Source of the DNA: Lacrimispora amygdalina
GTDB taxonomy: Bacteria; Bacillota; Clostridia; Lachnospirales; Lachnospiraceae
Direction of reading: 5' to 3'
DNA length: 64,000 bases
NCBI RefSeq assembly: GCF_003432035.1
Contig: NZ_QOHO01000023.1
Span: forward strand, 1-64,000
Shown here: in pieces, positions 2,212 through 19,556 of the stretch
Numbering within the stretch: position 1 is the stretch's first letter
Layout of the letters: each line of letters opens with the position of its first letter
The notes under the pieces: generated by a model
Seen by the model: only the letters and a program-made list of their open reading frames with translations
The model's database searches: none
What the model was told of the DNA's origin: nothing
Position numbers and translations under genes: made by a program

Positions 2212-2358
2212 GTTATATTCCTCCCAATTAATTTTACCACAATTATAACATGTATAATGCGGCAGCTGTATGTCATGTTTTAACATAGTCCACTTCCTTA
2301 TAAAATCCTTAAAAATAGCTGTTACAATAGCAGTAAAAGGTTAAAAGGAGGTACCCCT

Positions 2359-3111
2359 ATGAAACAGACACTGTACAAAGCGGCTAATTGTGAAATGGAG
2401 GATGTTATGATGCATGAGTATATGATTAAAACCGATCATGTTTCCAAAAAATTTAAAAAGACATATGCAATTAATGATTTATCTATGTCTGTAAGGAAAA
2501 ATTCTGTCTATGGATTATTAGGACCTAACGGTGCTGGCAAATCAACATTACTGAAGATGATTACAGGTATTATCACCCCCACTTCCGGAGAAATATTATT
2601 CGATAATCACCCCTGGAGCAGAAAAGATCTATTAAGGATTGGTTCCCTTATTGAATCACCTCCTTTATATGAAAATTTAACAGCGTTTGAAAATTTAAAA
2701 GTACGGGCAACTCTTATGGGGATCTCAAACGATAAATGCATTGAAGTTTTAGAAAGAATGGACTTAATGGATACGGAAAATAAGCAGATCGCTGATTTTT
2801 CATTGGGAATGAAGCAAAGGCTGGGTATCGCATTAGCGCTTTTAAATGACCCTGAATTGTTAGTCTTAGATGAACCTACCAATGGGCTGGATCCTTTCGG
2901 AATGGAAGATTTAAGGAAAATGATCCGGACATTCGCAGTATCCGGGATTTCAGTCATTGTATCCAGTCATATCTTAAGCGAGATACAGCAGGTTGCCGAT
3001 GACATAGGCATTCTAAATAATGGGTCACTTCTATATCAGGATAAAATTGATGCCAATGAGAATCTGGAACAGTTGTTTATGGATATCATAAGAAAGGAGC
3101 GTGCTTCCTGA
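2359..3111 (+). CDS. lanF: Lantibiotic self-protection ABC transporter ATPase LanF
   Basis: ATP-binding subunit of a LanFEG transporter, which protects producers by expelling the lantibiotic from the membrane. Walker A GPNGAGKST is at about 55-63, signature SLGMKQ at 148-153 and Walker B with LDEPTNGLDP at 167-178. Instead of the Q-loop glutamine there is a glutamate (IESPPLYENL, E99), the 'E-loop' described as characteristic of LanF proteins. AGGAGG lies seven bases before this ATG; other starts at 2407 and 2410, also behind a GGAGG, would give a more usual length near 233 residues. The stop overlaps the lanE start by one base, so the three genes are surely co-transcribed. Confidence 0.9.
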   Translation: MKQTLYKAANCEMEDVMMHEYMIKTDHVSKKFKKTYAINDLSMSVRKNSVYGLLGPNGAGKSTLLKMITGIITPTSGEILFDNHPWSRKDLLRIGSLIESPPLYENLTAFENLKVRATLMGISNDKCIEVLERMDLMDTENKQIADFSLGMKQRLGIALALLNDPELLVLDEPTNGLDPFGMEDLRKMIRTFAVSGISVIVSSHILSEIQQVADDIGILNNGSLLYQDKIDANENLEQLFMDIIRKERAS

Positions 3112-3872
3112 TGTTACGAACCTATCTGGCAGCAGAAAACTTAAAATTTAAACGCACCCTGTTCCGGAAACTCATTTTATATATTCCGGCAGCCTTAATT
3201 TTAATAGCAGTTATATTTTTATCTGTGGGTATTGGTTTAGGTGGTTTTTCATGCTCCATCGTCTGCAATTGGTGTGTACCCATTGCGTCTTTATCCATTG
3301 TAATATTATGCCACTTAGTAAATAATAAGGAACAAAAACACAATTACCGGACTATTTACAGCCTGCCCATAGACTTAAAAAATACATTTATTTCTAAAAC
3401 AATTTTAATAGCACTTAATCTTTTGCTGATATCATTATTACTATCATTGATATCTATTATTTCAGAATACATGCAGTCAGGTGACTTAAGTGCATTCAAA
3501 TATACCGGATATTATGTTTTAGGATACTGCTTATTATGGCTGACTTTATTATGGCAGATCCCTTTCTGCTTGTTTTTGGATCAAAAAGCCGGATTCGTTG
3601 GTTCTATGATCATTAATCTGATTTTCACTGGATTTGGTGGTTTGTTTTTATCTCTGACTCCTATATTCTGGTTTTTTCCATATAGCTGGACCGCCAGGTT
3701 TATGATTACCTTATTCAGAGTTTTGCCAAACGGATTATTGGTTCAGGGAGGTACAAGACAGATTCTGAGTTTAGGCCAGAGTTCACTGCTGGTGGTTGTA
3801 AGCCTGCTCACTGCGGTCGTTCTTACATTTCTATTTGCACACTGGTACAGAGGGCAGGTGTATCGGAATTGA
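3111..3872 (+). CDS. lanE: Lantibiotic immunity ABC transporter permease LanE
   Basis: A 253-residue integral membrane protein with about six hydrophobic segments and almost no soluble domains, as expected for the LanE/MutE/EpiE family of immunity permeases (ABC-2 type). The first segment follows a basic N-terminus with 'AENLKFKRTLFRKL', a common opening of this family. It partners LanF and LanG to form the membrane part of the self-protection exporter. The ATG overlaps the lanF stop and the gene overlaps lanG by four bases, indicating translational coupling and fixed stoichiometry. Confidence 0.85.
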   Translation: MLRTYLAAENLKFKRTLFRKLILYIPAALILIAVIFLSVGIGLGGFSCSIVCNWCVPIASLSIVILCHLVNNKEQKHNYRTIYSLPIDLKNTFISKTILIALNLLLISLLLSLISIISEYMQSGDLSAFKYTGYYVLGYCLLWLTLLWQIPFCLFLDQKAGFVGSMIINLIFTGFGGLFLSLTPIFWFFPYSWTARFMITLFRVLPNGLLVQGGTRQILSLGQSSLLVVVSLLTAVVLTFLFAHWYRGQVYRN

Positions 3873-4600
3873 CAATTACAAGAGAGTTTTTCTCTAACTT
3901 TACAAAAATTAAACGAACTCCGCTTATACTATTGCATCTGCTGCCTCCTGTCGTAATTACAACATTATTTTTAGTTTATTACAATTCTGGAGGATACCGT
4001 ATTTTTTCTGATGTTCGGCTGTTTTTTATTTTGTTGCAAATATGCTATCCTATGTTTGTTAGTTTTGTTGTACCAATTTTTATTAATTTAGACCGCAATA
4101 TCAACAATGTCCAAAACGCTCTGGGAATTGTAGAATCCAGAAGAAGTGTTTATCTGGGTAAATTGTTCTTTCTGCTGTTTCTGTCTTCCACTAGTATCAT
4201 ACTATACGAGCTATGCTTTTATGCCGGAGTGAATTTTTTTCTAAATATGAACTTTATGGACTTTGGTTCCTATTTTTTCATATTCTGCTCATTTTTATTA
4301 AGTAACTTATTTTTATATGTTATACATGTACCCATTGCTTTTAAATTTGGTTTCAGTATCTCCGTTTTATCAGGAATAGCAGGTACAATTTTAGCTGGTT
4401 ACTTTGAAAATTCCATTGGTGATAAAATCTGGCCGGCTATTCCCTGGGAATGGGGTGTGCGGTTTTTAAAAGATTATTTTAACCTTACCAGTGGATCAGT
4501 TATTCCTGGAGTAATTTCTCTGATTATTATTACTTCGGCTGTTCTGGTTCTCACAATATTATGGTATAGTAGATGGGAAGGCAGAGTTATACAAGAGTAA
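3869..4600 (+). CDS. lanG: Lantibiotic immunity ABC transporter permease LanG
   Basis: A second six-segment permease (243 residues), similar in layout to LanE but with its own sequence; it opens with 'EFFSNFTKIKRTPLI', the usual LanG-type motif of a short cytoplasmic helix before the first membrane span. It starts with TTG at 3869, overlapping the lanE stop by four bases (AATTGA), with AGGTG upstream. With LanF and LanE it completes the immunity transporter. No lipoprotein LanI is seen nearby, so this transporter appears to be the only visible immunity system in the cluster. Confidence 0.85.
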   Translation: MTITREFFSNFTKIKRTPLILLHLLPPVVITTLFLVYYNSGGYRIFSDVRLFFILLQICYPMFVSFVVPIFINLDRNINNVQNALGIVESRRSVYLGKLFFLLFLSSTSIILYELCFYAGVNFFLNMNFMDFGSYFFIFCSFLLSNLFLYVIHVPIAFKFGFSISVLSGIAGTILAGYFENSIGDKIWPAIPWEWGVRFLKDYFNLTSGSVIPGVISLIIITSAVLVLTILWYSRWEGRVIQE

Positions 4601-4617
4601 GATAAGGAGGATAGTTT

Positions 4618-5292
4618 ATGCCAAAACTGTTAGTCATCGACGATGACCTGGATATGCTGGCTCTGGTACGCACTGCTCTGGAAAAAGATGGTTACCAGGT
4701 GGACACTGAAGCAAATGCTGCTTCCTTACAGCCTGCCAGATGCCGATTATACGATCTTTTGCTTCTTGATGTAATGATGCCCGGCGAGGATGGATTTTCC
4801 TTCTGCAGGCGGATCCGTACCGAAGTGGATTGCCCTATCCTGTTTTTAACCGCCAAGGCAGAAGATTCAGCTCTCGTCCAGGGCTTTGGCCTGGGAGCCG
4901 ATGATTACATTAAAAAGCCTTTCAGTATTGCAGAGCTGCGTGCCCGGGTAGGCGCTCATCTTCGGAGAGACGTGCGTCAGCCAACCCATATATTAAGACG
5001 AGGCAGCGTCCGCTTCGATATACAGGCAAAAACGGCATTTGCTGGTGAACACACACTGCCCTTCACCAAGGGCGAATATGCGATCTGTGAGCATCTGGCA
5101 CTTCACGCCGGGCAGGTGTATACCAAAGAGCAATTATACGAAGCCGTTTTCGGATATGACGCAGAGGGAGATTCGTCCGCTGTTGCAGAGCACATTAAAA
5201 ATATCCGTGCCAAGATGAAAGCTCACGGCATCAGTCCTATTGATACAATTTGGGGGGTGGGTTACAAATGGCGAAAAAACGAAGATCTGTAA
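4618..5292 (+). CDS. lanR: OmpR-family response regulator LanR
   Basis: A 224-residue response regulator. The receiver domain (1-115) has the acidic pocket D8/D9, the phospho-acceptor D51 (LLLLDVMMPGEDGF), the switch Thr in FLTAKA and the Lys in YIKKPF. The C-terminal winged-helix domain (about 130-224) ends 'VWGVGYKW'-like (IWGVGYKW). It lies 17 bases after lanG behind GGAGG and overlaps the kinase gene. In nisin and subtilin systems this regulator, phosphorylated by LanK after the extracellular peptide is sensed, activates the structural gene; the direct repeats upstream of the lanA promoter at 13345-13376 are its likely binding site. Confidence 0.9.
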   Translation: MPKLLVIDDDLDMLALVRTALEKDGYQVDTEANAASLQPARCRLYDLLLLDVMMPGEDGFSFCRRIRTEVDCPILFLTAKAEDSALVQGFGLGADDYIKKPFSIAELRARVGAHLRRDVRQPTHILRRGSVRFDIQAKTAFAGEHTLPFTKGEYAICEHLALHAGQVYTKEQLYEAVFGYDAEGDSSAVAEHIKNIRAKMKAHGISPIDTIWGVGYKWRKNEDL

Positions 5293-6623
5293 GTCTTTCC
5301 TTTGTCCTTTTACGCTTTGGCATTGTTATGCTTGGCTGCATGCTATTATGCTGCCTGTTATGGTATTGGTTATTTATCCGGCTTGTAAATACCGGCTTTT
5401 TCTATAAGTCCTATACTTCCACCCGGCAGGTAGAGCAAATGCTGGCTGGCGACCCGGAAACCTTCGTTTCTCCAAGTGATGATTTTTTGGCAGAGTACGC
5501 TTTATTTGACCGGAACGGTAAAGTTTTGGAAAGTAATACCAAAGGAAGAAAACTGAAAAAACTGAGTAGTCTTTTACAGGAAGATACATCTACTATGCGT
5601 GTTTCCAGACATACTTATAGAAATGGAAGCACGGTGATTATACGATATTATTACAGATCAGAGTTTGCAAATCCTGTTCTTCGAGGTGCTCTTCCCCCCT
5701 TTGAATATCTTTGGCTGTCATCGCTGGGAGCAGCATTGGTGTTTTGTCTGCTGTTTAACACCCTGTGGCTTCGTCAGCGTCTTGCTGCCAGGCTTAAGCT
5801 GTTTGGTGATGTTAGCCGGAAGGTAGGTGCCAAGGAACTGGATTTTACAATTCCACACGCAGGAATACGGGAATACGATCAGGCACTTGATGCAATGGAG
5901 CATATGAGAGATGCTTTGTACAATTCTTTGTCTTCCCAGTGGGCGGCACAGCAGGAACGGGAAGCAGAAATAGCCGCACTGGCCCATGATTTAAAAACTC
6001 CACTCACTCTGGTGGGCGGTAATGCTGAGCTGCTGCTTGATGAAGAACTCCCTGAAAGCAGCCGAAGAATGGTGGAAACAATTGCTGCCAGCAATCAACG
6101 TGCCAGGCAGTATGTAACAAGTTTCCTTGAATCCTCGGCAGGTGAGGAGGAGGCTTTTAAAAGCAACAGTCTGAATGCTCTGTTTGAACAACTGATCAGT
6201 AACACTACGGCTATTGCAGAAGCAAGGGGCGTAAGCATGAAAGTCCAGAACAGCCTTAACGGTTCTGCAAACGTCCAAAAGGATCATTTGCTTCGAGCCC
6301 TTGGAAATGTAGTACAAAATGCCATAGAGCATTCACCGGTTGGTGGAAACGTATATTTGACAGGCAGTATTGCAGATGGCGGCTGGCAGGTGACTGTCTG
6401 TGATGAAGGCCCTGGATTTAGTAAGGCGGCTTTACTACATGCAACGGAACGACTGTGGCGCGGAGATACGGCTCGTAGTGCAGACGGCCATAATGGTCTC
6501 GGGCTCTGGTTTGCTGCACAGGTAGTTAAAACCCACGAAGGTCAGCTTTATCTGAGTAACTCCAAGTCCGGAGGGGTTGTTACAATTAAATTCAGAGAGG
6601 GTGTCGCAAAATCACTAAAATAA
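5268..6623 (+). CDS. lanK: Sensor histidine kinase LanK
   Basis: A 451-residue membrane kinase with two spans (about 12-40 and 146-166) enclosing an extracytoplasmic sensor of about 105 residues, a HAMP-like linker, the H-box AHDLKTPLT with phospho-acceptor H240, the N-box NVVQNAIEHSP, and G-boxes DEGPGFS and GLGLWFA. The sensor size and order match NisK/SpaK-type kinases that detect the mature lantibiotic. ATG 5268 is chosen because of the strong GGGGGGTGG before it; it lies inside lanR, so the two are translationally coupled. The last codons form the left arm of the terminator that follows. Confidence 0.88.
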   Translation: MAKKRRSVSLSFVLLRFGIVMLGCMLLCCLLWYWLFIRLVNTGFFYKSYTSTRQVEQMLAGDPETFVSPSDDFLAEYALFDRNGKVLESNTKGRKLKKLSSLLQEDTSTMRVSRHTYRNGSTVIIRYYYRSEFANPVLRGALPPFEYLWLSSLGAALVFCLLFNTLWLRQRLAARLKLFGDVSRKVGAKELDFTIPHAGIREYDQALDAMEHMRDALYNSLSSQWAAQQEREAEIAALAHDLKTPLTLVGGNAELLLDEELPESSRRMVETIAASNQRARQYVTSFLESSAGEEEAFKSNSLNALFEQLISNTTAIAEARGVSMKVQNSLNGSANVQKDHLLRALGNVVQNAIEHSPVGGNVYLTGSIADGGWQVTVCDEGPGFSKAALLHATERLWRGDTARSADGHNGLGLWFAAQVVKTHEGQLYLSNSKSGGVVTIKFREGVAKSLK

Positions 6624-6646
6624 AGTGATGGAGTGACACCCTCTTT
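6596..6646 (+). terminator. Terminator overlapping the end of lanK
   Basis: AGAGGGTGTC (6596-6605) pairs perfectly with GACACCCTCT (6635-6644); ATCACT/AGTGAT forms an inner stem. A short T run follows. The stop codon of lanK (6621-6623) is in the loop region. It separates lanFEGRK from the convergent lanBTC unit. Confidence 0.8.
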
Positions 6647-6755
6647 CCATATAAAACAAATTTTAAAAGATTATTTTTATGTACACCACAAAACCATCTA
6701 TTAGTTAAAGTGGTTAGAATCCCGATAATTAAGTGACCAGATTTTAAAATCACCA

Positions 6756-8027
6756 TTATAATAAAAATATGGAATCCCATTGTGTCTTAACGGGTTGATA
6801 GCAAGATAAAATAGTCAGGATCACTCCACTGGTTCCTGTTAAGAGTCCTATTTCATCCTTATTTACGATATGCCCTTCCTCTATTTCTGTATCCTTAAAA
6901 CCAAATGGATATTGATCACTGTATGATTCCAGTAAATGATCCAATATTTTCATATGCACTTCATAAAAGAAGTCATCATCTGTGTATTCATAGAATTTTC
7001 TGGTCAGGCAGCACAAACCAGAAAGACCGTGACAAAAAGTAGGTGAGATAACATGCCGCATTCTTTTCAAAGATAACTTCATACTATCAATCGCAAGCTT
7101 ACCCATTTCATCATTATTAAGGATCTTTGAAGCAATCAATAATGAATACGCCACACCTGGAGTACCATAACACCATGCATCTCTGGATGGTACTGCTTTC
7201 CCCTGTTCCATCCCTATTATTTTTTGAGTTTCCCAATAAATATCATCACTGTCTTTTATACAGCTGCTAAAAATAAATTCTGACAGATATTTTATTGCTT
7301 CCAGCTGGTCTTGTACATATACTCCCGACTCATAGGACTTACATAATATTAAAAGTATGCCAGGGATCCCGTGCGCAACCCCTAAATTTATATATCGTAT
7401 CTCCTGACTATTTTCCAATGGAAACAATTGACTCTCATCTGACCGGATGGCAAACCGGGGGATATTGTTGTCCCCTGCTTTACAAATATCCGCTAAATAT
7501 TGCAAAATATGCAACAAAGTCTCTTTCACGTTCTGCTCGGATTTAAAATTCAACAGATAATTGGCTGTACCGGTTAATCCATACATAATATCATAAAGTA
7601 GTTCGTTTAATGGAAGTTCTTTGTACTTTTGGATATTATTTTCCGCGATATCAACAATATACTCGTTTAGACTCTTTATAAACGATTGATATCGTTTCCC
7701 ATGGTCTGACATACAATGTGCAGCAAACCCCACTCCGCATAGCCCATCAAACAGGGAAATATCATAGATGTTGTTTTTTCCCATATAATCGTTTATGATC
7801 TCCAGATATTTATGAGCATAATTATCAAAACCATAATCTGGGTAATTTAATTGAAGTTCCGAAAATAATATACATAATGCGGGATATGACACTGCTACTG
7901 AAGTACATCGATACTCAGTTTTATTTGAAGCAAATATCCCCTGAACATAATCTGCGTCAGATAATTTTTTTGATATATTTATTATGAAATTATCCAATTC
8001 ACGCTTTTTTTCATTCGGTAAATTCAT
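6756..8027 (-). CDS. lanC: Lanthionine synthetase cyclase LanC
   Basis: Zinc-dependent cyclase (423 residues) that adds cysteine thiols to dehydrated Ser/Thr to form lanthionine rings. The zinc ligands are visible as C286 in WCYGTPG and C332-H333 in FCHGLSG, and the catalytic histidine motif VAHGIPG lies near H219. The repeated Gly-rich 'GxxG' turns (GLCGVG, GLTGTA, GVAHGIPG, GTPGVA, GLSGLC, GTSGVI) of the alpha/alpha barrel are all present, so the enzyme looks intact. It is the last gene of the leftward lan unit, three bases after lanT, and converges on lanK. The length is typical for class I LanC proteins. Confidence 0.93.
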   Translation of the reverse strand: MNLPNEKKRELDNFIINISKKLSDADYVQGIFASNKTEYRCTSVAVSYPALCILFSELQLNYPDYGFDNYAHKYLEIINDYMGKNNIYDISLFDGLCGVGFAAHCMSDHGKRYQSFIKSLNEYIVDIAENNIQKYKELPLNELLYDIMYGLTGTANYLLNFKSEQNVKETLLHILQYLADICKAGDNNIPRFAIRSDESQLFPLENSQEIRYINLGVAHGIPGILLILCKSYESGVYVQDQLEAIKYLSEFIFSSCIKDSDDIYWETQKIIGMEQGKAVPSRDAWCYGTPGVAYSLLIASKILNNDEMGKLAIDSMKLSLKRMRHVISPTFCHGLSGLCCLTRKFYEYTDDDFFYEVHMKILDHLLESYSDQYPFGFKDTEIEEGHIVNKDEIGLLTGTSGVILTILSCYQPVKTQWDSIFLL

Positions 8028-8029
8028 AA

Positions 8030-9838
8030 TCAGCCTCCATTTTGGGGTATATCGAATTCCAGATCATAAATTTCTTTATAAGAGGGACATGTTTTTAATA
8101 ACTCTTCATGTGTACCTTCAGCAACGATCTTTCCTTCGTCCAGATAAATTATTTTATCAGCTAACATGACATGTGCAATTTTATGAGAAATAAATACACC
8201 TATTTTGTTTTTTGTAAGTTCAAAAAATGTGTTCATTATTTTTTTCTCACCCATTTTATCCAGCGCCGCATTGGGTTCATCCAAAATATACATTTGTGCT
8301 TTTTTGAAAAAGCACCTGGCCAGAGCTACTCTCTGCCACTGCCCACCAGATAACTGTGTTCCATCTGAAAACCATTTTCCCAGCTGCTGATTTAAATCAG
8401 GAGGAAGAAAGTCTATACTGGCTTCTTCCAGTGACTCTCTTATCTGGGCCTCATTATCGATTTCATCAATGTTACCGAAGCCTACATTATCCTTTACTGA
8501 AAGTTCATACTTGCAGAAATCCTGGAATAATACACCTGTTAATTTATGTAAGCTGTCAATATTAACTTTATTTAATGGAATTCCATTTATCTTAATTATA
8601 TCGTCTTCAACTAAATAATATCCCAGTAATAATTTTATTAATGTACTTTTACCTGATCCGTTTCTTCCGAACAATGCAACTCTTTGGTTTTTATCAATTT
8701 TTATGTTGATGTTCTGAAGAACTTTTTTATCTGTTTCCGGATATGCAAATGTTAGATTATTTATTTCAATCTGATTTAAATCGTTTAGTTTGTATGTTTC
8801 TTTACTATTCCCATTTCCAGTCTTATTAAGAAAATTAATCAGTTTTGACATATACAGACTGTTTTGATTTATGCTGTAAATAATATTCATAATACTGTTA
8901 AAGCTATCAAACATCATGTTTATAATTCTTAAAAGTGCAACAGCGTTACCAATTAGGATTTCACCTGCAATTACAGAGAATATGATTAAAATCATGAGTA
9001 CCGCCATACAGATCTGATCAACAAAATCAAATACAACAGATATAATCAGCCTTACTTTGGTATTGTACAAGTTTTCATTAATCACGCTTTGCTTTAAATC
9101 ATTATGTCTCTTTATAATATGCCTGGCTAAATTAAAAATTTTAACTTCTTTAAATGATTGATCCTTTGTAAGTAAAAATTCGTAATACCATATACTTCTG
9201 GCTTTCTTTGCATTTCTTTCTTCTGTCTGGAACTCTCTTTTACTTATGGATAAGTAGAATATTGAAAAGGCAAACGCCGGAACAATAATCAAAAATACCG
9301 ACAACGGCCGCCACATCAATATGATATATACAGATGAAAGTATGGTAGTAATGGAAGTTACAAGTGTCAATGTGGTTGTAAATATATTATAAGGCCTGAA
9401 TCCCACCTGGGAAAGGATATGCTGCAGCTGATCCTGTATATCAGAATTTTCAAATTCCTCCAAAGACATAATGGCGCATTTATCCAATAATCTGTTAATC
9501 AATTCATAATCCAACAAGAATTGAAATTTGGTAAATAAAAATGTTTTAATACTTATAATCATACCTGATACAAAACTTATCCCGATATAGATTGCTAATA
9601 CCTTCAGCGAGAGATTTAAGTCTTTCGCTGAAATAGCATTAATCAGGCTACCAAAAATATTAACGGAAATTACAGGAACAATACCCGCAATTATATTAAT
9701 AATGATGGTTAGTACAAATATTGGTTTGCTGGCCTGGAAGAATATTTTAATGGATTTTGGAATCACTTTTAAGGAAGAAAGCATTTCCTTTACTTCTGAA
9801 GTACTTAGTATTTTAAATTTCTGCATATTATTTATCAC
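8030..9838 (-). CDS. lanT: Lanthipeptide exporter LanT (ABC transporter, no C39 protease)
   Basis: A 602-residue half transporter with N-terminal membrane domain (about 40-330, five to six spans) and C-terminal ATPase: Walker A GRNGSGKST (391-399), Q439, signature LSGGQ (496-500), Walker B YILDEP (517-522), H-loop SHK. There is no N-terminal C39 peptidase domain, so it exports the modified precursor with its leader still attached, like NisT and SpaT. The gene begins 11 bases inside the end of lanB and ends three bases before lanC, as in a tightly coupled biosynthetic operon. A second in-frame ATG lies four codons downstream. Confidence 0.92.
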   Translation of the reverse strand: MINNMQKFKILSTSEVKEMLSSLKVIPKSIKIFFQASKPIFVLTIIINIIAGIVPVISVNIFGSLINAISAKDLNLSLKVLAIYIGISFVSGMIISIKTFLFTKFQFLLDYELINRLLDKCAIMSLEEFENSDIQDQLQHILSQVGFRPYNIFTTTLTLVTSITTILSSVYIILMWRPLSVFLIIVPAFAFSIFYLSISKREFQTEERNAKKARSIWYYEFLLTKDQSFKEVKIFNLARHIIKRHNDLKQSVINENLYNTKVRLIISVVFDFVDQICMAVLMILIIFSVIAGEILIGNAVALLRIINMMFDSFNSIMNIIYSINQNSLYMSKLINFLNKTGNGNSKETYKLNDLNQIEINNLTFAYPETDKKVLQNINIKIDKNQRVALFGRNGSGKSTLIKLLLGYYLVEDDIIKINGIPLNKVNIDSLHKLTGVLFQDFCKYELSVKDNVGFGNIDEIDNEAQIRESLEEASIDFLPPDLNQQLGKWFSDGTQLSGGQWQRVALARCFFKKAQMYILDEPNAALDKMGEKKIMNTFFELTKNKIGVFISHKIAHVMLADKIIYLDEGKIVAEGTHEELLKTCPSYKEIYDLEFDIPQNGG

Positions 9839-12800
9839 CCAGTATACCTATTTTTTTTCTGTTGTAAACACAGTAATATGTATGACGTGCTAAAGTTCTC
9901 ATCTTTTTTTCCAATTCCCTTTTGGGACCAAACAATCGATTCATGTTCATATGCAGCAGACTATCCAGTATGCTTAATTTTACAGCTTTGTTATCCGGAT
10001 AATTTTCTTCAATTCTATTTAAATATTCTTTCATTGATTGTTGTTTTACCGATAATATTTTCAAAATAAATTCAATCTCTGGATTTAAAGTTTCATGATT
10101 CAAATACTTTATTACGAAATCAACGTAAGTATCCTTATGTTCTCTGAATTCTTTTTGATAGTTCTTGGTAGGATTTTCACAATTGAGAAATACAAACATA
10201 TCCTCAAAACTCAAATTAAATGTTTGCATGTGAAAGAAAATTATCACTGATGCTAAAAGTTCATCTGGCACTTTTATATTATGATTATTTTTTTCATAAA
10301 TTATGGTTTGAATTGCTATGCTGTCTTTACAAAACACCTCATGGGCATAGTTCATCAAATCATATCCGCCATACCTCTCCAATTCTAGCTCATAACAATT
10401 TATACTATAATTTGAGATAAGAGATTTTTTCATAAGCTGGCTTAATATATCTAACATTTTAGGCAATACCATCATTAATTTAGTATTATCAGCTTTTAAT
10501 CTCAATCTCAGATGTAAATCAGGATCTTTATACTGAATAAAGAAATAGCTGTCAATTTCTTTGTTTTCAAGTAACTTCTGCAATGGAGCATACAGAGCTT
10601 CACCTAACAGATAATCTGCATATTCCTCAATACCGTATATTTTGAAATATAGCCACTCATCTAACGGCTCTTTATATCTGACATTACCATAATTCCTTGT
10701 AATGTCAAAATTATTGGCCTTATGGGGGGTAGCATCCTGAGCTAAAATTAATGGTATTACCAATTCACTGCAATAAGAACTGTCATTCAGTTTCACTGGA
10801 TGCTCTGATTCTATATTATATCTTTCCACAACAGTTTCTGATTTTTCCAGCAATTTCTGCAACACAGATAAACATCTGTCCTCTTTCAGATTTAACAGTA
10901 GTTTTTTGTCTGTATCTACAGCATCCACCCAAAGGGGTATTTTTCTTGAATTTATGTATTCGTTAAATTTATTTTTAAACTCAGCAAAATCATAATGTTT
11001 TGTTAAACCCAGATCGCCTATTTTAATAATCCATTTTTCCTGTTCCAATACGAAGTTTTTATATCGTATTGTTGGAAGATAGGCAAATTTCTCCAGTAAG
11101 TATTGCCATGGTTTATTATAAAACTTAATTCCATCAGAAGAAACTTCGTCAATTAATCGTAATATTCTGGGTTTTAACTGCGGATTAAACATATTGGTAG
11201 ATGTTGATATGATTCTTTTATTGTTAACCGCAGACTTTAAATATAATTTGTTGTTTTTAAATTCTACTAAAATATCACTTAGCTTAAGTATAAATGCCTG
11301 ATCTTTGGAATTTGTAGTCCCAAAACTTGATTCATAAGTGGAACCATGTATATTTCGAATTATGTTTGCATGCTTTAAAGTATCGGGTAAGTAGGTAAAT
11401 TCACAGACCTGGCATTTATCACCATAATTTTTATTTATTTCTTCAAAGAATTGTTTTGGATTCTTCATTAAGTGAGAAAATCTTCCAAATGTTTTTCCTG
11501 CATAAGTTGATCCAAATATATTACTTAAATAGTAAACATCCCTTCCATTTTCTTTCACATAATTAAAGTAGATTTCCATGGATTTGGGCAACTGATCCAG
11601 ATCAATAACTTCTGTTAAAAACATTCCCATATCTGCATCAGTAATCTCTATTTCCTGACCAAGTCTTATGGAATCAACATATTTTCTTTCAAAAAATCGT
11701 ATCCAGGGGTTGATATATTCTCCCAGATTATTTATGCCGGTTTTTCCATCATAATGGTCTGGAAAACCGATTCCTATATCAGGATCAATAAGTTCAATCA
11801 AAGGAACGCACCTGGAATGGCCATACTTTTCTAAAAATTTGCTCTTGTAATCATATAAATTATTGAAAGGCTCTTTGATATTAAATTGTATAAATAAATT
11901 GAGAAGCTTATTTATTTTTTTTATTTCATTTTGATTTAAGTTGCATTGGCTATAGGAGAAGGAGGAATCTATGGCCAGGTAGTTTTTTGAGTCGTGGATT
12001 CTCTTCATGTTTTTGAAAATCTGTGTCACGCTTTCGATGGTATTATTTATATGGCCATTGGAATATTCCTGAAATTTATTTTTTATGTCAATTAAGGAGC
12101 TTGTATTTATATCGTATTCCTGAAGTTTACAGATAAAGTATTCAAATTGGTCAACGATTGTTAATGGAGGACGAAGATCGGATATTAAATAACCTTCCTT
12201 TATGAGTGATTGGATATATGTATGAAATGTGTTTTCTTCCACATTCGGATATTCTTTTTTAAGGTTTTCTATAATATCAGAATAACTTACGTAATCTCCT
12301 GATATTTTCAAGACCACTTCAAATGCATTGGAGTACTTTACAGATTTTTTATTTACTTTTTCCCCATTGCTGTCTTTTGTGCAGTTAAATAAGATTGCTT
12401 TGTTTCTCTGAATAGCAACACTTTCATTGATTTTGTATCGGAGGAATTTTAAGTACTTGGATTCGTACATAAAAACCACCTGGTATAACCACTCTGAATC
12501 AATCAGGGGGTTCCTTTTTAATTCTGCACTGCTTAATTCAAATGATGTTCTTTCAGATGTAATATTACCAAATGCAACTGTTGAGAATAATCCAAATGGA
12601 GTACACCTGGAACAGCTTCTGCTAAAATATTTATAAATTGAATTCAACAAATAATTCGTATCTCTTGCTGTGCCCTCCTCTATATAGTGCTGCATAGATT
12701 CATATAAATCTTGGCTTGCCACAAATATAGCTTCATTAAACTGATCTTTGTATTGAGGAGAATCAAATAAAAACATAGTATGATCTATGTTTGTTTTATT

Positions 12801-12884
12801 TCCTATGTTATCTGTCAATAAATTGATTGGCAGACCCGGTGTTCTTATCATAAAGGAACCTATATCTTTGTATAAATCTTTCAT
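9828..12884 (-). CDS. lanB: Class I lanthipeptide dehydratase LanB
   Basis: Full-length LanB (1018 residues; NisB is about 990). The opening 'DIGSFMIRTPGLPIN' and the region with 'RSCSRCTPFGLFSTVAFG' are classical glutamylation-domain signatures; the C-terminal part from roughly residue 730, with 'SYFFIQYKDPDLHLRLRLK', is the SpaB_C glutamate-elimination domain. The enzyme uses glutamyl-tRNA to activate and dehydrate Ser/Thr of LanA. Its nearest SD-like run (AAGGGGG) is 13 bases from the ATG, longer than usual; the ATG also overlaps the stop of a 46-codon ORF, so translational coupling is possible. It belongs to the unit lanA-lanB-lanT-lanC. Confidence 0.93.
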   Translation of the reverse strand: MKDLYKDIGSFMIRTPGLPINLLTDNIGNKTNIDHTMFLFDSPQYKDQFNEAIFVASQDLYESMQHYIEEGTARDTNYLLNSIYKYFSRSCSRCTPFGLFSTVAFGNITSERTSFELSSAELKRNPLIDSEWLYQVVFMYESKYLKFLRYKINESVAIQRNKAILFNCTKDSNGEKVNKKSVKYSNAFEVVLKISGDYVSYSDIIENLKKEYPNVEENTFHTYIQSLIKEGYLISDLRPPLTIVDQFEYFICKLQEYDINTSSLIDIKNKFQEYSNGHINNTIESVTQIFKNMKRIHDSKNYLAIDSSFSYSQCNLNQNEIKKINKLLNLFIQFNIKEPFNNLYDYKSKFLEKYGHSRCVPLIELIDPDIGIGFPDHYDGKTGINNLGEYINPWIRFFERKYVDSIRLGQEIEITDADMGMFLTEVIDLDQLPKSMEIYFNYVKENGRDVYYLSNIFGSTYAGKTFGRFSHLMKNPKQFFEEINKNYGDKCQVCEFTYLPDTLKHANIIRNIHGSTYESSFGTTNSKDQAFILKLSDILVEFKNNKLYLKSAVNNKRIISTSTNMFNPQLKPRILRLIDEVSSDGIKFYNKPWQYLLEKFAYLPTIRYKNFVLEQEKWIIKIGDLGLTKHYDFAEFKNKFNEYINSRKIPLWVDAVDTDKKLLLNLKEDRCLSVLQKLLEKSETVVERYNIESEHPVKLNDSSYCSELVIPLILAQDATPHKANNFDITRNYGNVRYKEPLDEWLYFKIYGIEEYADYLLGEALYAPLQKLLENKEIDSYFFIQYKDPDLHLRLRLKADNTKLMMVLPKMLDILSQLMKKSLISNYSINCYELELERYGGYDLMNYAHEVFCKDSIAIQTIIYEKNNHNIKVPDELLASVIIFFHMQTFNLSFEDMFVFLNCENPTKNYQKEFREHKDTYVDFVIKYLNHETLNPEIEFILKILSVKQQSMKEYLNRIEENYPDNKAVKLSILDSLLHMNMNRLFGPKRELEKKMRTLARHTYYCVYNRKKIGILGDK

Positions 12885-13021
12885 ATTTTAACCGTATCCC
12901 CCTTGCTTAACTCTTGTATGCCTAACCAAAATAGAAACTTCATTTGTACCAGTAAATTACTTCCACAAAATGTAAACGTACATGCATTTTGTGAATCTTC
13001 TAAATGCATGTACGTTTGCAT
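12881..13021 (-). CDS. Possible 46-aa ORF coupled to lanB
   Basis: An open frame from ATG 13021 to a TGA that overlaps the lanB start as ATGA. The translated product is 46 residues, with a Trp/Phe-rich centre (QMKFLFWLGIQEL) and a polar end. A second in-frame ATG lies four codons later. No ribosome binding site is visible at either, and the first codons lie inside the lanA-lanB hairpin, so expression would need the stem to open. I do not recognise a family. It could be a real coupling peptide, a remnant, or chance. Confidence 0.25.
   Translation of the reverse strand: MQTYMHLEDSQNACTFTFCGSNLLVQMKFLFWLGIQELSKGDTVKI
12971..13020 (-). promoter_or_regulatory. Long hairpin between lanA and lanB
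   Basis: Arms 12971-12989 and 13002-13020 are complementary over 19 bp with one non-Watson-Crick position and a 12-base loop (core AAACGTACATGCATTT). No proper T run follows in the leftward transcript, only ACATTTTG. Its place, just after the lanA stop, matches the partial terminators or processing hairpins known between nisA and nisB, which let lanA be made in excess of the enzymes. Confidence 0.75.
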
Positions 13022-13043
13022 CGGGTTTAGTTTTGCGTGGACA

Positions 13044-13217
13044 TTAATAGCATAAAACTGTGTTTGTGCAGCTTCTTGTTATCCCACATTCACTTGTTTC
13101 ACAGGTTGTTCCTGTTAAACAACCAGATGTGCAATAAACAATACTTGCAATTTTTGATTCTCCTACATCTACTGAACCCTTGTCCATTTTAAGATCTAAA
13201 TCAAAATCTTTATTCAT
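13044..13217 (-). CDS. lanA: Nisin-like lanthipeptide precursor LanA
   Basis: A 57-residue precursor read directly from the sequence. The 22-residue leader begins MNKDFDLDL, a clear FNLD-box that LanB and LanC recognise (nisin has KDFNLDL), and ends GESK. The predicted 35-residue core begins IASIVYCTSGC, which aligns with nisin ITSISLCTPGC and with gallidermin, so rings A and B (S3-C7, T8-C11) that bind the lipid II pyrophosphate are conserved; position 9 is Ser instead of Pro. The rest holds Cys at core positions 17, 22, 28 and 34 and three further TxxC units. AAGGGGG stands eight bases before the ATG. It is transcribed ahead of lanBTC. Confidence 0.95.
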   Translation of the reverse strand: MNKDFDLDLKMDKGSVDVGESKIASIVYCTSGCLTGTTCETSECGITRSCTNTVLCY

Positions 13218-13278
13218 GTACTCGTCCCCCTTTCTATGTAGTTATATAATCTCAATCCGATCATATATAGTAAATGTG

Positions 13279-13293
13279 TAATGAATCACATTA
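13279..13293. repeat. Small inverted repeat in the lanA leader transcript
   Basis: TAATG and CATTA separated by five bases, within the predicted 5' untranslated region of lanA. It may be a weak stem or a protein site; five-base arms can also arise by chance. Confidence 0.3.
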
Positions 13294-13312
13294 CTACCAA
13301 ATTAATTCCCGT

Positions 13313-13341
13313 ATTATATCAAGAAATATACTCTATTTTAA
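13313..13341 (-). promoter_or_regulatory. Predicted lanA promoter
   Basis: On the reverse strand a perfect -10 TATAAT (13318-13313) with an upstream TGA triplet forms an extended -10 (TGnTATAAT). A weak -35 (TTAAAA, 13341-13336) is 17 bp away, as expected for an activator-dependent promoter. The start would be near 13306, giving a 5' leader of about 90 bases before lanA. Confidence 0.7.
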
Positions 13342-13344
13342 CTG

Positions 13345-13376
13345 CATGTAATTTTTACGACTCTACATGTAATTTT
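13345..13376 (-). promoter_or_regulatory. Predicted LanR operator: two 11-bp direct repeats
   Basis: AAAATTACATG occurs twice on the reverse strand (13355-13345 and 13376-13366), identical and 21 bp apart, two helical turns, so both copies face the same side of DNA. The proximal copy ends four bases from the -35 box. OmpR-type regulators bind such tandem repeats next to -35. The binding protein is inferred to be LanR because it is the only response regulator in the cluster. Confidence 0.7.
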
Positions 13377-13421
13377 CTATGATGTTGTTTATGATACGAG
13401 TCAAAATCTGCAAATATAGGC

Positions 13422-13472
13422 AAAAAATAGCTGTACACCAGCTCATTAAAATGCTGTGTGCAGCTATTTTTT
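13422..13472 (-). terminator. Terminator upstream of the lanA control region
   Basis: AAAAAATAGCTG...CAGCTATTTTTT arms (13422-13442 and 13453-13472) form a stem of about 20 bp with one bulge and one mismatch; T runs are present in both directions. It directly follows the hydrolase remnant and would shield the lanA promoter from read-through. Confidence 0.8.
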
Positions 13473-13475
13473 GCA

Positions 13476-13705
13476 TCAATTTTCAATTATATATTTTATT
13501 ATCTCCGCTAAATTAATCGGGTTTTCTATCATTGGCATATGACAGGCATTCTTAACAAATCGAAAACTTAAGAAAAATTTTCTGCTCTTTCTGTTAAAGA
13601 ATGTGGATACTCTACATATGTTATGTCATATTTTTCCATTTGGATCTGGAACTGTTTCCATATTTCAATTGTGCATTTAGCACCATATAAGGCTAAACCT
13701 TTCAT
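13476..13705 (-). pseudogene. Alpha/beta hydrolase remnant
   Basis: From an ATG at 13705, preceded by GGAGG, 45 codons read as the start of a small alpha/beta hydrolase (GLALYGAKCTIEIWKQF, DITYVEYPHSLTERA) and then hit TAA at 13568-13570. In another frame the last 24 codons before 13476 read as the end of such a protein, with the catalytic-His region NACHMPMIENP. About 170 central codons, including the nucleophile elbow, are missing, so an internal deletion with frameshift is the simplest explanation. It marks the right edge of the lanthipeptide region. Confidence 0.7.
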
Positions 13706-13883
13706 TTGATGTTACCTCCGGATTTTTCAATGTTGTTTTTTATATAATTCAACCATTTTGTTTATTTGTCTATATATGTATAAACATAATATTGTTTTAG
13801 TCCACGAATTATTCCAATACATATCTCCGCCGTTATAACCTCGATTCCGCTTGCGCTCCATCTCGGTCACGGGCTTCGCCCTA

Positions 13884-13950
13884 TAAAAATAAGCATCAGA
13901 AAGCCCGGTGGAGAGCAAGCTCTCCACCGGGCTTTCCGACACTTATTTTT
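13884..13950 (-). terminator. Strong bidirectional terminator after ppdK
   Basis: AAAGCCCGGTGGAGAGC (13900-13916) and its exact complement (13919-13935) form a 17-bp stem with a two-base loop, flanked by AAAAATAAG/CTTATTTTT extensions. It lies about 20 bases after the ppdK stop. A GGGCTTCGCCC mini-hairpin (13870-13880) is adjacent. The 13706-13883 stretch holds no other recognisable element. Confidence 0.9.
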
Positions 13951-13971
13951 GCACGGCTCATTGCCAACGCA

Positions 13972-16596
13972 TTAATTATTCAACGCTGCCTGTGCTGCCG
14001 CAAGTCTTGCGATCGGCACACGGAACGGGGAACAGGATACATAGTCAAGACCAATCTTATGGCAGAATTCTACGGAAGACGGATCTCCGCCGTGCTCGCC
14101 GCAGATACCTACATGCATATCAGGACGGACGCTCTTGCCTAACTTGATTGCAGTCTCCATCAGCTTGCCTACGCCGGTCTGATCCAGTTTTGCAAATGGA
14201 TCATTCTCAAAAATCTTGGTATCATAGTAAGCGTTTAAGAACTTACCTGCATCATCACGGGAGAAGCCATAGGTCATCTGAGTTAAGTCATTGGTACCGA
14301 AGCAGAAGAACTCCGCATCTTTTGCGATATCATCGGCTGTCAGTGCTGCTCTCGGAATCTCAATCATGGTTCCTACCTGATAGGTTAAGCTGCTGCCTGC
14401 TGCTGCAATCTCTGCATCTGCAGTCTCAACAACAATCTTTTTCACAAATCTTAATTCTTTCTCATCACAGATCAGAGGAATCATGATCTCAGGACATACA
14501 TTCCAGTCCGGATGTGCTTTCTGAACGTTGATTGCAGCACGGATCACTGCCTTTGTCTGCATTCTTGCAATCTCCGGATAGGTAACAGCAAGACGGCATC
14601 CTCTGTGTCCCATCATCGGATTGAATTCATGAAGAGAATCAATGATTGTTTTGATCTGCTCCACAGTCTTGCCCTGTGTATCAGCCAGCTTCCTGATATC
14701 ATCTTCCTCTGTAGGAACGAACTCATGAAGAGGCGGATCTAAGAAACGAATGGTAACAGGATTTCCTTCCAGAGCTTCATATAGAGCTTCAAAATCTCCC
14801 TGCTGTACCGGAAGTATCTTCTCCAGTGCTGCTTCTCTCTCTTCAACTGTATCGGAACAGATCATCTCACGGAATGCGTCAATTCTGTCGCCTTCAAAGA
14901 ACATATGCTCTGTACGGCAAAGACCGATACCTTCTGCGCCAAGCTCTCTGGCTTTTCTTGCATCAGCAGGTGTATCTGCATTGGTTCTGACTTTCAGCTT
15001 TCTGTATTTATCAGCCCACGCCATAATTCTTCCAAACTCACCGGCAACGGTTGCATCGACTGTCGGGATAATTCCGTCGTAAATCTTACCAGTTGATCCG
15101 TCCAGGGAAATCCAGTCTCCTTCGTGGTATTCCTTGCCTGCAAGTACAAATTTTTTCGCTGCCTCATTCATGGCAATTTCAGAACAGCCGGATACGCAGC
15201 AGGTTCCCATTCCTCTTGCAACTACAGCTGCATGGGAGGTCATTCCTCCTCTTACAGTCAGAATACCCTGAGCTGCCTTCATACCCTCAATATCTTCAGG
15301 AGAGGTTTCCAGACGGACTAAAACCACCTTTTCTCCTCTTTCCTTCCATGTCTTAGCATCATCTGCTGTGAAAACGATCTTACCGCAGGCAGCTCCCGGA
15401 GAAGCAGCAAGTGCCTTTCCAACCGGCTCTGTCTTCTTTAATACTTCTGCATCAAACTGAGGATGAAGCAGAGTGTCTAAGTTTCTCGGATCAATCATCT
15501 TAACTGCTTTTTCTTCTGTGATCATAAACTCGTCTACTAAATCACAGGCAATCTTTAAAGCAGCCTTCGCTGTTCTCTTACCATTACGGGTCTGAAGCAT
15601 ATAAAGCTTCTTGTCTTCAATGGTAAATTCCATATCCTGCATGTCTTTATAGTGATCCTCCAGGATACTGCAGATTCCCACAAATTTATGATAAACTTCC
15701 GGCATAACTTCTTTTAACTGCTCGATCTTCTGAGGAGTCCGCACACCGGCAACCACATCTTCACCCTGTGCATTCATCAGGAATTCACCCATAAGATGTT
15801 TTTCACCAGTTGCCGGATCACGGGTAAATGCCACACCCGTACCGGAAGTCTCACCCATGTTTCCAAATGCCATCATCTGAACATTGACAGCCGTTCCCCA
15901 GGAATAAGGAATATCGTTGTCACGGCGGTAAACATTGGCTCTTGGGTTGTCCCAGGAACGGAATACGGCCTTGATAGCCTCCATTAACTGCTCCTTAGGA
16001 TCAGTTGGGAAATCAGAACCGATTTTTTCCTTATATTCATCTTTAAACTGTCCTGCAAGCTCTTTTAAATCCTCTGCAGTCAGCTGCACATCCTCTGTAA
16101 CACCCTTTTTTTCTTTCATTTCATCAATCAGCTCTTCGAAGTACTTTTTACCCACTTCCATAACTACATCGGAGAACATCTGGATAAATCTTCTGTAGCA
16201 GTCCCACGCCCATCTCGGATTGCCTGATTTTTCTGCAAGCACTTCCACTACTTTCTCATTCAGTCCAAGATTTAAAATCGTATCCATCATACCAGGCATT
16301 GATGCCCGGGCTCCGGAACGAACGGAAACAAGAAGAGGATTTTCGTTATCACCAAATTTTTTGCCGGTGATTTTTTCCATCTTTTCGATATGATCCATGA
16401 TCTGCCCCATGATCTCGTCATTAATTGTTTCCCCATCTTCATAATACTGAGTACAAGCCTCAGTCGTAATTGTAAATCCCTGAGGAACCGGCAGACCTAA
16501 ATTGGTCATCTCTGCCAGATTCGCTCCTTTGCCACCTAACAGGTTTTTCATGTCTGCACTTCCCTCGGTGAACAAATAAACCCATTTTCTTGCCAT
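13972..16596 (-). CDS. ppdK: Pyruvate, phosphate dikinase
   Basis: Interconverts pyruvate, ATP and phosphate with phosphoenolpyruvate, AMP and pyrophosphate, a glycolytic or anaplerotic step in clostridia. The 874-residue length equals that of the well-studied C. symbiosum enzyme. Order: ATP-grasp domain (GGKGANLAEM, SVRSGARASMPGMMDT), swivelling phosphohistidine domain (GGMTSHAAVVARGMG, His near 456) and the PEP/pyruvate TIM barrel with catalytic Cys in ICGEHGGDP and the C-terminal SCSPFRVPIARLAAAQA. ATG 16596 follows AGGAGG; an in-frame ATG at 16650 adds 18 residues unlike the family. It is monocistronic between strong terminators and a promoter at about 16671-16699. Confidence 0.96.
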   Translation of the reverse strand: MARKWVYLFTEGSADMKNLLGGKGANLAEMTNLGLPVPQGFTITTEACTQYYEDGETINDEIMGQIMDHIEKMEKITGKKFGDNENPLLVSVRSGARASMPGMMDTILNLGLNEKVVEVLAEKSGNPRWAWDCYRRFIQMFSDVVMEVGKKYFEELIDEMKEKKGVTEDVQLTAEDLKELAGQFKDEYKEKIGSDFPTDPKEQLMEAIKAVFRSWDNPRANVYRRDNDIPYSWGTAVNVQMMAFGNMGETSGTGVAFTRDPATGEKHLMGEFLMNAQGEDVVAGVRTPQKIEQLKEVMPEVYHKFVGICSILEDHYKDMQDMEFTIEDKKLYMLQTRNGKRTAKAALKIACDLVDEFMITEEKAVKMIDPRNLDTLLHPQFDAEVLKKTEPVGKALAASPGAACGKIVFTADDAKTWKERGEKVVLVRLETSPEDIEGMKAAQGILTVRGGMTSHAAVVARGMGTCCVSGCSEIAMNEAAKKFVLAGKEYHEGDWISLDGSTGKIYDGIIPTVDATVAGEFGRIMAWADKYRKLKVRTNADTPADARKARELGAEGIGLCRTEHMFFEGDRIDAFREMICSDTVEEREAALEKILPVQQGDFEALYEALEGNPVTIRFLDPPLHEFVPTEEDDIRKLADTQGKTVEQIKTIIDSLHEFNPMMGHRGCRLAVTYPEIARMQTKAVIRAAINVQKAHPDWNVCPEIMIPLICDEKELRFVKKIVVETADAEIAAAGSSLTYQVGTMIEIPRAALTADDIAKDAEFFCFGTNDLTQMTYGFSRDDAGKFLNAYYDTKIFENDPFAKLDQTGVGKLMETAIKLGKSVRPDMHVGICGEHGGDPSSVEFCHKIGLDYVSCSPFRVPIARLAAAQAALNN

Positions 16597-16670
16597 AAGT
16601 AAAATCCTCCTCAAAATGTGAAAATTATGCTGCTCCCCCGCAGCTTTCATTGCGGAAAAGCCCTGAAAGT

Positions 16671-16699
16671 ATTATAGCACAATTAAAGGGGGAGTAAAG
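16671..16699 (-). promoter_or_regulatory. Predicted ppdK promoter
   Basis: Reverse strand TGCTATAAT, an extended -10 (TATAAT at 16676-16671), with a -35-like CTTTAC (16699-16694) at 17 bp. The start near 16664 leaves a leader of about 70 bases before ATG 16596. Confidence 0.6.
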
Positions 16700-16812
16700 A
16701 GGTTTTCATTGATTATTTGAAGTAATTTTCTCTTTTTTAAATACAATTGCATTGAAAGCACTTACAAAGTCTGTCTTTTTCCGATATGCGATTTGTGTTC
16801 GTATATACGAAA

Positions 16813-18135
16813 TTACCTTCGACAAATACTCTGTTTTTTTAACATAATTCGACATACAGCAAGAGTCAGCACTTCTGTCACCGGCATCACAGTCCAGATT
16901 CCCGTAACTCCCATAAACAATGGAAGAACAAAAACCAGAAGGCTGTTTAGAACGATCCCCCGAAGCAGGCAGATCCTCAAGGCATTTGCAGGTTCCATCA
17001 CTGACTGGAACCAGGTGGTGTAAAGCACATTCAGCCCCATTGCTGCAAAGGACAGAAAGTAAATCCTTACTGCTGGAACCGCCATAGTCAGAATTTCCTT
17101 ATCAGGTCTTACAAATGCTTCTGTTACAAGAGCCGGAAACAAAAGTCCCATCCCGGCAAACAGCACACCGGAAAGACAGGCTGTCCCCTCCGCCAGATGT
17201 CTTACCTCCTTTAACCTTTCCTTTTTTCCTGCACCGTAATTTGTTGCCAGAATCGGCTGTACTGCCTGGGATATTCCGTTATTGACTGACGATGCGATAT
17301 ATGCGCTGTTGGAAATAATACCATAAACCACCACTCCCAGTTCACCGGCGATGGAAAGAATCTGGCGGTTAAATAAGAAGGTGACGATTCCATTGCACAT
17401 ATCCAGTAAAAAGCTGGAGAATCCATTTTTCACCACATCTGCAGCCTGCTTCAAACGGATTCCTGTAACAAATCTTAATGTATTTTCTTTTGAAACCAGG
17501 TGGGTCAGCAATATAAAAAGAGTTACAAAACTGCCGATGACAGTGGCAGCAGCAGCCCCTTTCATACCCATCTGCATGGGAAACATCAGAATATAATCCA
17601 GGATAATGTTTAACACTCCTCCTGAAACCACTGCTGTCATGGCAAGCCTTGGCGCTTTATCATTGCGCACAAATACCTGATAAAAAGATGCAAATAAAAA
17701 AGCGGGGGCTCCTGATATCAGAATCCGTCCATACTCCTCCACATAAGGCGTCATATTTCCATTTCTCCCCAGAAATGCTGTAATGGGCAGAAAAAAAGCA
17801 TGGCCGAAAACGGTATAGGTAACGCTCATTCCTGCAGCCATTATAAATGCAGCTGTATAATACTGATTGGCAGCCAGACCGTCTTTTTTCCCTTTGCACA
17901 CAGATAAAAGGATTCCGCCTCCTGCCCCGAACAGCATGCCGGTTGCAAAGAACAGGCTGAACAGAGGCAGAAGTATATTCAGGGCAGCAATTCCGATCGC
18001 GCCCACTCCTCTTCCAATCATAAGAGTGTCTGCTAATATATAAATGGATGTAACCATTGTTGCACTAATTGACGGAAGAAGATATCCTGCGAATAATTTT
18101 TTAACAGGATCTTCCAGTAGATTTACTTTTTTCAT
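16813..18135 (-). CDS. MATE family efflux transporter
   Basis: A 440-residue protein with about twelve membrane spans in two related halves. N-terminal 'LLEDPVKKLFAGYLLPSISATMVTSIYILADTLMIGRGVG' and the repeat 'GISQAVQPILATNYGAGKKER' are hallmark MATE segments. These proteins export cationic drugs or metabolites with Na+ or H+ antiport; the substrate cannot be told. GGAGA stands nine bases before the ATG. It is divergent from the BMP operon; the 238-base gap between them holds promoters for both. Confidence 0.9.
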   Translation of the reverse strand: MKKVNLLEDPVKKLFAGYLLPSISATMVTSIYILADTLMIGRGVGAIGIAALNILLPLFSLFFATGMLFGAGGGILLSVCKGKKDGLAANQYYTAAFIMAAGMSVTYTVFGHAFFLPITAFLGRNGNMTPYVEEYGRILISGAPAFLFASFYQVFVRNDKAPRLAMTAVVSGGVLNIILDYILMFPMQMGMKGAAAATVIGSFVTLFILLTHLVSKENTLRFVTGIRLKQAADVVKNGFSSFLLDMCNGIVTFLFNRQILSIAGELGVVVYGIISNSAYIASSVNNGISQAVQPILATNYGAGKKERLKEVRHLAEGTACLSGVLFAGMGLLFPALVTEAFVRPDKEILTMAVPAVRIYFLSFAAMGLNVLYTTWFQSVMEPANALRICLLRGIVLNSLLVFVLPLFMGVTGIWTVMPVTEVLTLAVCRIMLKKQSICRR

Positions 18136-18326: not shown

Positions 18327-18373
18327 AGTGTTATCTCTGAAAATATATAAATAACAGGAGGAAAGATCGTATT

Positions 18374-19549: not shown

Positions 19550-19556
19550 TCCGAAG

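Follow-up and report, generated by a model that had tools for sequence, protein, structure and literature searches.

The 64,000-nucleotide stretch of Lacrimispora amygdalina DNA analysed here (hereafter the window) carries a lanthipeptide cluster whose product is, judging from the sequence, quite probably a lipid II-binding bacteriocin of the class I gallidermin/nisin family, built as a ladder of six rings and not expected to form nisin-type pores.

A nisin-family precursor with a regular second half

The cluster (2359-13217) is laid out as lanA-B-T-C on the minus strand and lanFEG-RK on the plus strand, so that biosynthetic, immunity and regulatory genes surround the precursor gene. All nine genes are open frames:

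13044..13217, minus strand: lanA, 57-aa precursor, above the TIGR03731 cut-off and ungapped in seven genomes
9828..12884, minus strand: lanB, dehydratase, 1018 aa
8030..9838, minus strand: lanT, ABC exporter, 602 aa, with no peptidase domain match
6756..8027, minus strand: lanC, cyclase, 423 aa, with WCYG and FCHG motifs
2359..3111, plus strand: lanF, lantibiotic protection ABC ATPase (TIGR03740, 348.4 bits, cut-off 309.75)
3111..3872, plus strand: lanE, immunity permease of the MutE/EpiE family (TIGR03732, 175 bits, cut-off 145.2)
3869..4600, plus strand: lanG, immunity permease of the MutG family (TIGR03733, 133.1 bits, cut-off 117.2)
4618..5292, plus strand: lanR, OmpR-type response regulator, profile matches
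5250..6623, plus strand: lanK, sensor histidine kinase, profile matches

LanA is MNKDFDLDLKMDKGSVDVGESK / IASIVYCTSGCLTGTTCETSECGITRSCTNTVLCY, where the slash marks the inferred cleavage site; the plus strand of 13044-13217 is interrupted by stops. The precursor scores 37.2 bits against TIGR03731, the NCBI gallidermin/nisin model (cut-off 29.3, E = 2.2e-9), and keeps a gap-free frame of 57 columns in seven genomes, in agreement with the family assignment made by a sequence-only reading of the same DNA. No match to Pfam models was obtained for LanA at E up to 0.1. The leader (residues 1-22, ending ...VGESK) contains an FDLDL box that is identical in all seven precursors and is of the FxLD type of class I lanthipeptides, and the core (residues 23-57) would start at Ile23.

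The core contains six Cys (core positions 7, 11, 17, 22, 28 and 34) and no Lys, both as previously read, with one Arg and two Glu giving a simple net charge of -1; the sister cores described below have a net charge of 0. Ser or Thr occupies positions 3, 8, 9, 13, 15, 16, 19, 20, 25, 27, 29 and 31. The sequence-only reading had also described four TxxC units repeated about every six residues. The four units are there (TSGC at T8, TSEC at T19, TRSC at T25 and TVLC at T31), but their spacing is not regular, with steps of 11, 6 and 6. The missing rung is T13-GTT-C17, a TxxxC unit, and it is thus the threonines that recur, exactly six residues apart at positions 13, 19, 25 and 31, followed by Cys at +4 (T13) or +3 (T19, T25 and T31).

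Given that each of these four threonines has its own Cys and that rings A and B lie in the nisin register, a point on which the earlier reading was right, the six rings probably do not overlap. We infer the pairs S3-C7, T8-C11, T13-C17, T19-C22, T25-C28 and T31-C34. Alternative partners are available in T15, T16, S20 and T29, and the C-terminal rings may be intertwined in the manner of geobacillin I. The layout departs from that of the nisin group, as there are six Cys without the CxC pair for intertwined rings D/E, and nothing hinge-like separates the third Cys from the fourth in the window or sister precursors. It also departs from geobacillin I and maddinglicin, both of which have seven Cys.

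Modification, export and maturation

LanB is full-length, with both the N- and C-terminal dehydratase domains found in class I enzymes. Among solved structures, its closest match is MadB (573.8 bits, versus 275.2 for NisB), and that of LanC is MadC (279.1 bits, versus 91.9 for NisC); here we take LanB entries 9g04 and 9g05 to be MadB, and LanC entry 8byk to be MadC. The WCYG and FCHG motifs of LanC, presumably its zinc-ligand sites, align to MadC, and the cyclase is a separate protein, as in class I systems. Moreover, the nine LanB residues that PMC12241602 lists as essential are all present by manual reading of the alignment (R89, R93, T95, D129, D306, R468, R795, R837 and H978).

With these enzymes, LanB, guided by the FDLDL leader, would dehydrate core Ser and Thr residues, and LanC would close six thioether rings: A and B in the nisin register, then C to F consecutively, with neither overlap nor hinge. 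LanT would export the modified precursor, and LanFEG would serve in self-protection.

Neither lanP nor lanI was recognised in the cluster (2359-13217), and the gap of ~130 bp between lanC and lanK is too small for another gene. The leader would be cut after Lys22 by a trypsin-like protease from outside the cluster, either cell-associated or environmental. Lys at -1 is also found in another precursor of the genus, that of genome G728 (...AESK/IRSKSLCTPGC). The genome has 27 S8 peptidase matches, none of them on the window's contig (C92), and a dedicated, unlinked LanP is therefore possible. Since Arg26 is inside a predicted ring, a trypsin-like protease might cut the core too.

Between lanC and lanK, three of the six sister loci carry a lipoprotein-like gene (regions 3418-5359 of L067, 15161-17145 of L065 and 2807-3697 of L066). 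A gene with a phage-lysozyme domain (Pfam) comes after it in L067, and a similar one occurs in L065; the window has neither kind of gene.

Expression signals around lanA

Four candidate signals flank lanA:

13226..13233, minus strand: strong, purine-rich ribosome-binding site with a GGGGG run, just upstream of lanA, identical in all seven aligned upstream regions
13313..13318, minus strand: TATAAT, -10-like hexamer matching the consensus, putative lanA promoter, identical in all seven
13342..13376, minus strand: candidate LanR-binding site made up of two direct repeats, AAAATTACATGCAG and AAAATTACATGTAG, that lie 21 bp apart
12974..13017, minus strand: hairpin with a 16-bp perfect stem between lanA and lanB, candidate partial terminator or processing site

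The second repeat copy is identical in the seven loci; in the first, the final G of the window copy is replaced by A in all six sisters, and L037 shows one additional change. The motif, derived from its own two copies upstream of lanA, has no further exact match in the window, and with up to three mismatches it gave 52 matches versus 38.9 expected. No match was found upstream of lanF (2287-2358, up to three mismatches). LanRK, probably sensing the product, would drive lanA from this direct-repeat promoter.

Hairpins between lanA and lanB are common in lantibiotic operons and permit more lanA than lanB to be made. The 84-nt stretch containing this one folds at -27.9 kcal/mol (z -5.5), and its stem and loop are identical in the seven loci; an invariant stem thus provides no covariation to support it. 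Rfam models gave no match at gathering scores in positions 1-20000.

Conservation of the ring residues in sister genomes

The search for LanB relatives, run on one genome per species with patterns from two LanBs, returned seven loci, six of them at 83-92% identity (best segment) and one, from Velocimicrobium porci, at 31%. Of the six, referred to here as sisters, two come from records named Lacrimispora xylanisolvens and one from L. defluvii; the other three are from MAGs, one Hungatella and two with the label Paenibacillaceae. Their lanB is one frame in five cases and two frames in the sixth, L041 (CP070896 assembly). Both lanB (6998-10057) and ppdK (2314-4835) are split in L041, which suggests assembly indels and not real decay.

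Within the genus, the ladder precursor is found in 7 of 25 genomes, including that of the window, and a canonical nisin-type precursor in two (G728 and G722); 16 have no match. One of these 16, G727, has lanF-, lanE- and lanG-like genes at a contig end and may hold a broken-off copy.

In the alignment of the seven precursors, the 12 Ser, Thr and Cys residues of the predicted rings are identical throughout. The sister core reads IASVAYCTPGCLTG(T/S)TCGTSECG(M/L)TRNCTNTWLCY, and the ring A/B motif is CTSGC in the window versus CTPGC in all six sisters. The replacement of Pro9 by Ser, given by the sequence-only reading as a trait of the peptide, is thus real in the window genome but does not extend to the product family, in which Pro9 prevails, Ser9 being private to the window genome.

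The window core shares 28 of 35 positions with that of L042, the seven amino-acid changes including P9S, while L042 differs from the other five sisters by at most two core changes. None of these seven changes falls on the 16 Ser/Thr/Cys positions shared by the two cores, an outcome with a chance of 0.0075, or on any of the 12 predicted ring sites, for which the chance is 0.036. Comparison with L038, L039 and L040 adds an eighth change, in which Ser and Thr are exchanged at position 15, likewise outside the 12. P9S and N27S add serines that the sisters lack, so that the modification pattern could change in the window genome alone.

Selection was estimated between the window and five of the six sisters, L041 being left out because of its split lanB. 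Over the 35 codons of the core, dN is 0.11-0.13 and dS 0.22-0.31, giving a dN/dS of 0.43-0.57; the ratio is 0.15-0.19 for lanB, 0.05-0.08 for lanT and 0.12-0.19 for lanC. The leader is unchanged in four of the five comparisons and differs by a single codon in the remaining one. Such a pattern, small as the numbers are, would be expected of a peptide in use, with constraint on its ring skeleton but not on its faces.

A probable cassette at two positions around one gene block

2293..13390, no strand assigned: whole cassette, 11 kb, shared with the sister genomes as one block

Compared with four of the six sisters and with G727, the cassette DNA is 90-95% identical, with 93-95% in the lanA-C half and 90-92% in the immunity/regulation half. 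The corresponding values for the flanks are 72-74% (membrane gene), 80-86% (PNPOx block) and 89-90% (ppdK and MATE genes, barely below the second half of the cassette). The window has the cassette between ppdK and a PNPOx-DUF2200-PNPOx block (917-2286); in all six sisters, it lies on the opposite side of that block, adjoining a relative of the 266-aa membrane gene (loci L037-L042, L064-L069, L082 and L083). In G728, ppdK, the PNPOx block and the membrane gene are consecutive, without the cassette. The nearest relative over 17-2283 is G715 (91%), which keeps the block and the membrane gene together, carries a serine recombinase gene beside the PNPOx block and has no precursor match in its genome. 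From the two cassette positions and the cassette-free G728 and G715, repeated gain or movement of the cassette at this site is probable, or else its exchange among species.

When the cassette ends were compared (2151-2430 with 13301-13560), only one 12-nt word and single 9-mers were shared, within the range of shuffled sequences, and no clear terminal repeat was seen. Immediately downstream of ppdK is a 39-nt inverted repeat (13878-13957, 85% complementary), a portion of which has matches, in both orientations, close to the ppdK of three sisters.

Wider distribution

The TIGR03731 cut-off was exceeded in 2 of 397 family genomes, 2 of 381 class genomes and 2 of 373 phylum genomes, samples that were taken from larger groups and partly overlap; the window genome was one of the two each time. 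In the other members, from G363, G1072 and G1242, and in the precursors of G702, G706, G722 and G728, the second half is of the nisin type, canonical or shortened, and forms no ladder. Weak matches were also seen in C124 and C152, as were one match in G095 and TIGR03731 matches below the cut-off.

Plasmids and phages gave no match to the precursor. LanB relatives occur in 105 plasmid records, all below 60% identity, the ten listed being at 27-29%. A single relative among viral contigs (L036 and L086, the same contig) was discarded; it is the start of a 779-aa open reading frame that shares MNKDFDLD, apparently by chance.

In a LanB tree of 15 sequences, L041 not among them, to which long-branch warnings apply, the ladder LanBs, six in number, group together (100/100) at the end of a long branch. 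The LanBs of the canonical clusters join those of genus g394 apart from this group, at 90/91, below the tool's own mark. The LanBs of the canonical nisin-type clusters in G728 and G722 (L062 and L063) fall outside the ladder group, and with these beside the ladder clusters, the genus holds two nisin-family systems.

Four genomes of g394, a genus of the same taxonomic order (G470, G548, G561 and G567; L023, L025, L024 and L026), carry class I precursors made of YTSTC/YTSSC-like repeats, adjoining lanB. Their Cys ladder is more regular than that of the window, without a nisin head, and a literature search by the guessed genus name found no description of them. They resemble the window system in having a class I cluster and a ladder of TSTC-like units, with FDLE in the leader, and differ in the missing nisin A/B motif, a five-residue period, a LanB of 26-28% identity and a separate place in the tree. 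The LanB tree thus neither supports nor firmly disproves shared ancestry of the two ladders.

Comparison with known lanthipeptides

For comparison, we drew on PMC10877564, PMC12506125, PMC13289728, PMC9889658, PMC12241602, PMC11251773, PMC6031655 and PMC10804407. Maddinglicin (MadA, from Clostridium sp. Maddingley) is described there as a seven-Cys peptide with seven predicted rings, the four C-terminal ones intertwined, without hinge or lanI, and pore formation is judged unlikely. The window peptide is like it in its FDLD leader, nisin-like rings A/B, more than five predicted rings, and the lack of both hinge and lanI; it is unlike it in having six Cys and a predicted short, non-overlapping ladder, and the two precursors align weakly (E 0.001). 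Geobacillin I, compared by its published description only and reported as close in sequence to MadA, has seven intertwined rings determined by tandem MS and NMR; extra C-terminal rings are predicted here as well, but with six Cys and in a ladder.

The leader box, the ring A/B register and the types of cluster genes are those of nisin A, blauticin, nisin O and nisin VP. Nisin is described with five rings and a hinge, which separates ring C from ring D, and the nisin VP core has a charge of +2, against -1 or 0 here; the LanB of the nisin VP producer, V. porci, was the only one outside the ladder group in the LanB search. Natural loss of Pro9 in ring B is reported for rombocin A and cesin A, which have Ala there where the window has Ser and which, unlike the window peptide, are short and without C-terminal rings. 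In the rombocin report, 'the P/A mutant' lowered activity, and Pro9 is stated to be otherwise kept in known class I lanthipeptides except cesin A; by analogy, Ser9 may weaken lipid II binding. For nisin O, the source describes no protease gene and activity of the producer only with trypsin. The absence of lanI and hinge parallels maddinglicin, and that of a protease gene parallels nisin O.

PMC12506125 lists CTPGC and CTAGC among 164 nisin-like cores, and in open-licence literature 'CTSGC' together with 'lantibiotic' retrieved no paper. Searching that literature with six stretches taken from the window and sister precursors likewise retrieved none, although a sister core may be in Table S2 of PMC12506125. 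The same paper describes a Lacrimispora peptide, nisin RL8var. Its identity with the window peptide was considered and rejected: going by Table 1 of that paper, its unmodified ion would be ~3324, versus ~3652-3684 for the ladder cores. Nor does that ion fit either canonical core of the genus, at 3407 and 3258. As a control on the masses, the nisin VP core from G706 comes to ~3,100 with nine dehydrations, as published.

The proposal that a ring ladder replaces the nisin hinge is plausible and partly precedented. The second half is indeed ladder-like without a nisin hinge; in principle, this is not new, given maddinglicin and geobacillin I. What looks new is the arrangement in detail, namely Thr 13, 19, 25 and 31 each with its own Cys in a neutral or slightly anionic core.

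Mode of action and alternative readings

In the reading we favour, rings A and B of the mature peptide would bind the lipid II pyrophosphate and so stop cell-wall synthesis. With no hinge and no cationic tail, pores of the nisin type are improbable.

The ring topology could be that of geobacillin or maddinglicin instead, with six rings of which the C-terminal ones are intertwined through, for example, T15, T16, S20 or T29 and non-adjacent Cys. The closeness of LanB and LanC to the Mad enzymes, whose product is described with four intertwined C-terminal rings, speaks for this topology, but for each of Thr 13, 19, 25 and 31 a separate Cys already stands at +3 or +4, which gives rings of usual size, and MadA has seven Cys to the six found here; we therefore regard it as rather unlikely. 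That the peptide is a signalling or lantibiotic-sensing molecule acting mainly on LanK would agree with the dedicated LanRK, the low charge and the need for an outside protease. Yet three immunity transporter genes above their family cut-offs would be superfluous for a pure signal, and the lipid II motif is kept in all six sisters, which makes this role very improbable.

The window copy might also be degenerating, with Ser9 (and Glu18) weakening lipid II binding in a decaying or re-purposed allele and the CTPGC peptide of the sisters remaining active. Seven core changes from L042, including P9S, where L042 and the other sisters are at most two apart, point in that direction, as does the reported importance of position 9 in a nisin relative. 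Against decay stand nine open lan genes, the 12 retained ring residues, the hairpin and promoter block, both kept, and the dN/dS ratios of the core (0.43-0.57) and lanB (0.15-0.19); on balance, we hold degeneration to be unlikely.

Returning to the six-ring bacteriocin, a further and more tentative possibility, which we put at less than even, is that it represents a new nisin subgroup: a lipid II head (rings A/B) followed by four separate six-residue ring modules that make up a rigid ladder, anionic or without charge, the whole carried among Lacrimispora on a mobile cassette, and the window allele having a previously undescribed lipid II ring with Ser9 (possibly dehydroalanine-9). If so, it would add a modular, hinge-less C-terminal half of low charge to the nisin family. 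It would also offer a natural test of what the tail does in addition to binding lipid II, and a basis from which ring modules could be engineered. Between near-identical peptides, Ser9 versus Pro9 provides a natural experiment bearing on the lipid II ring.
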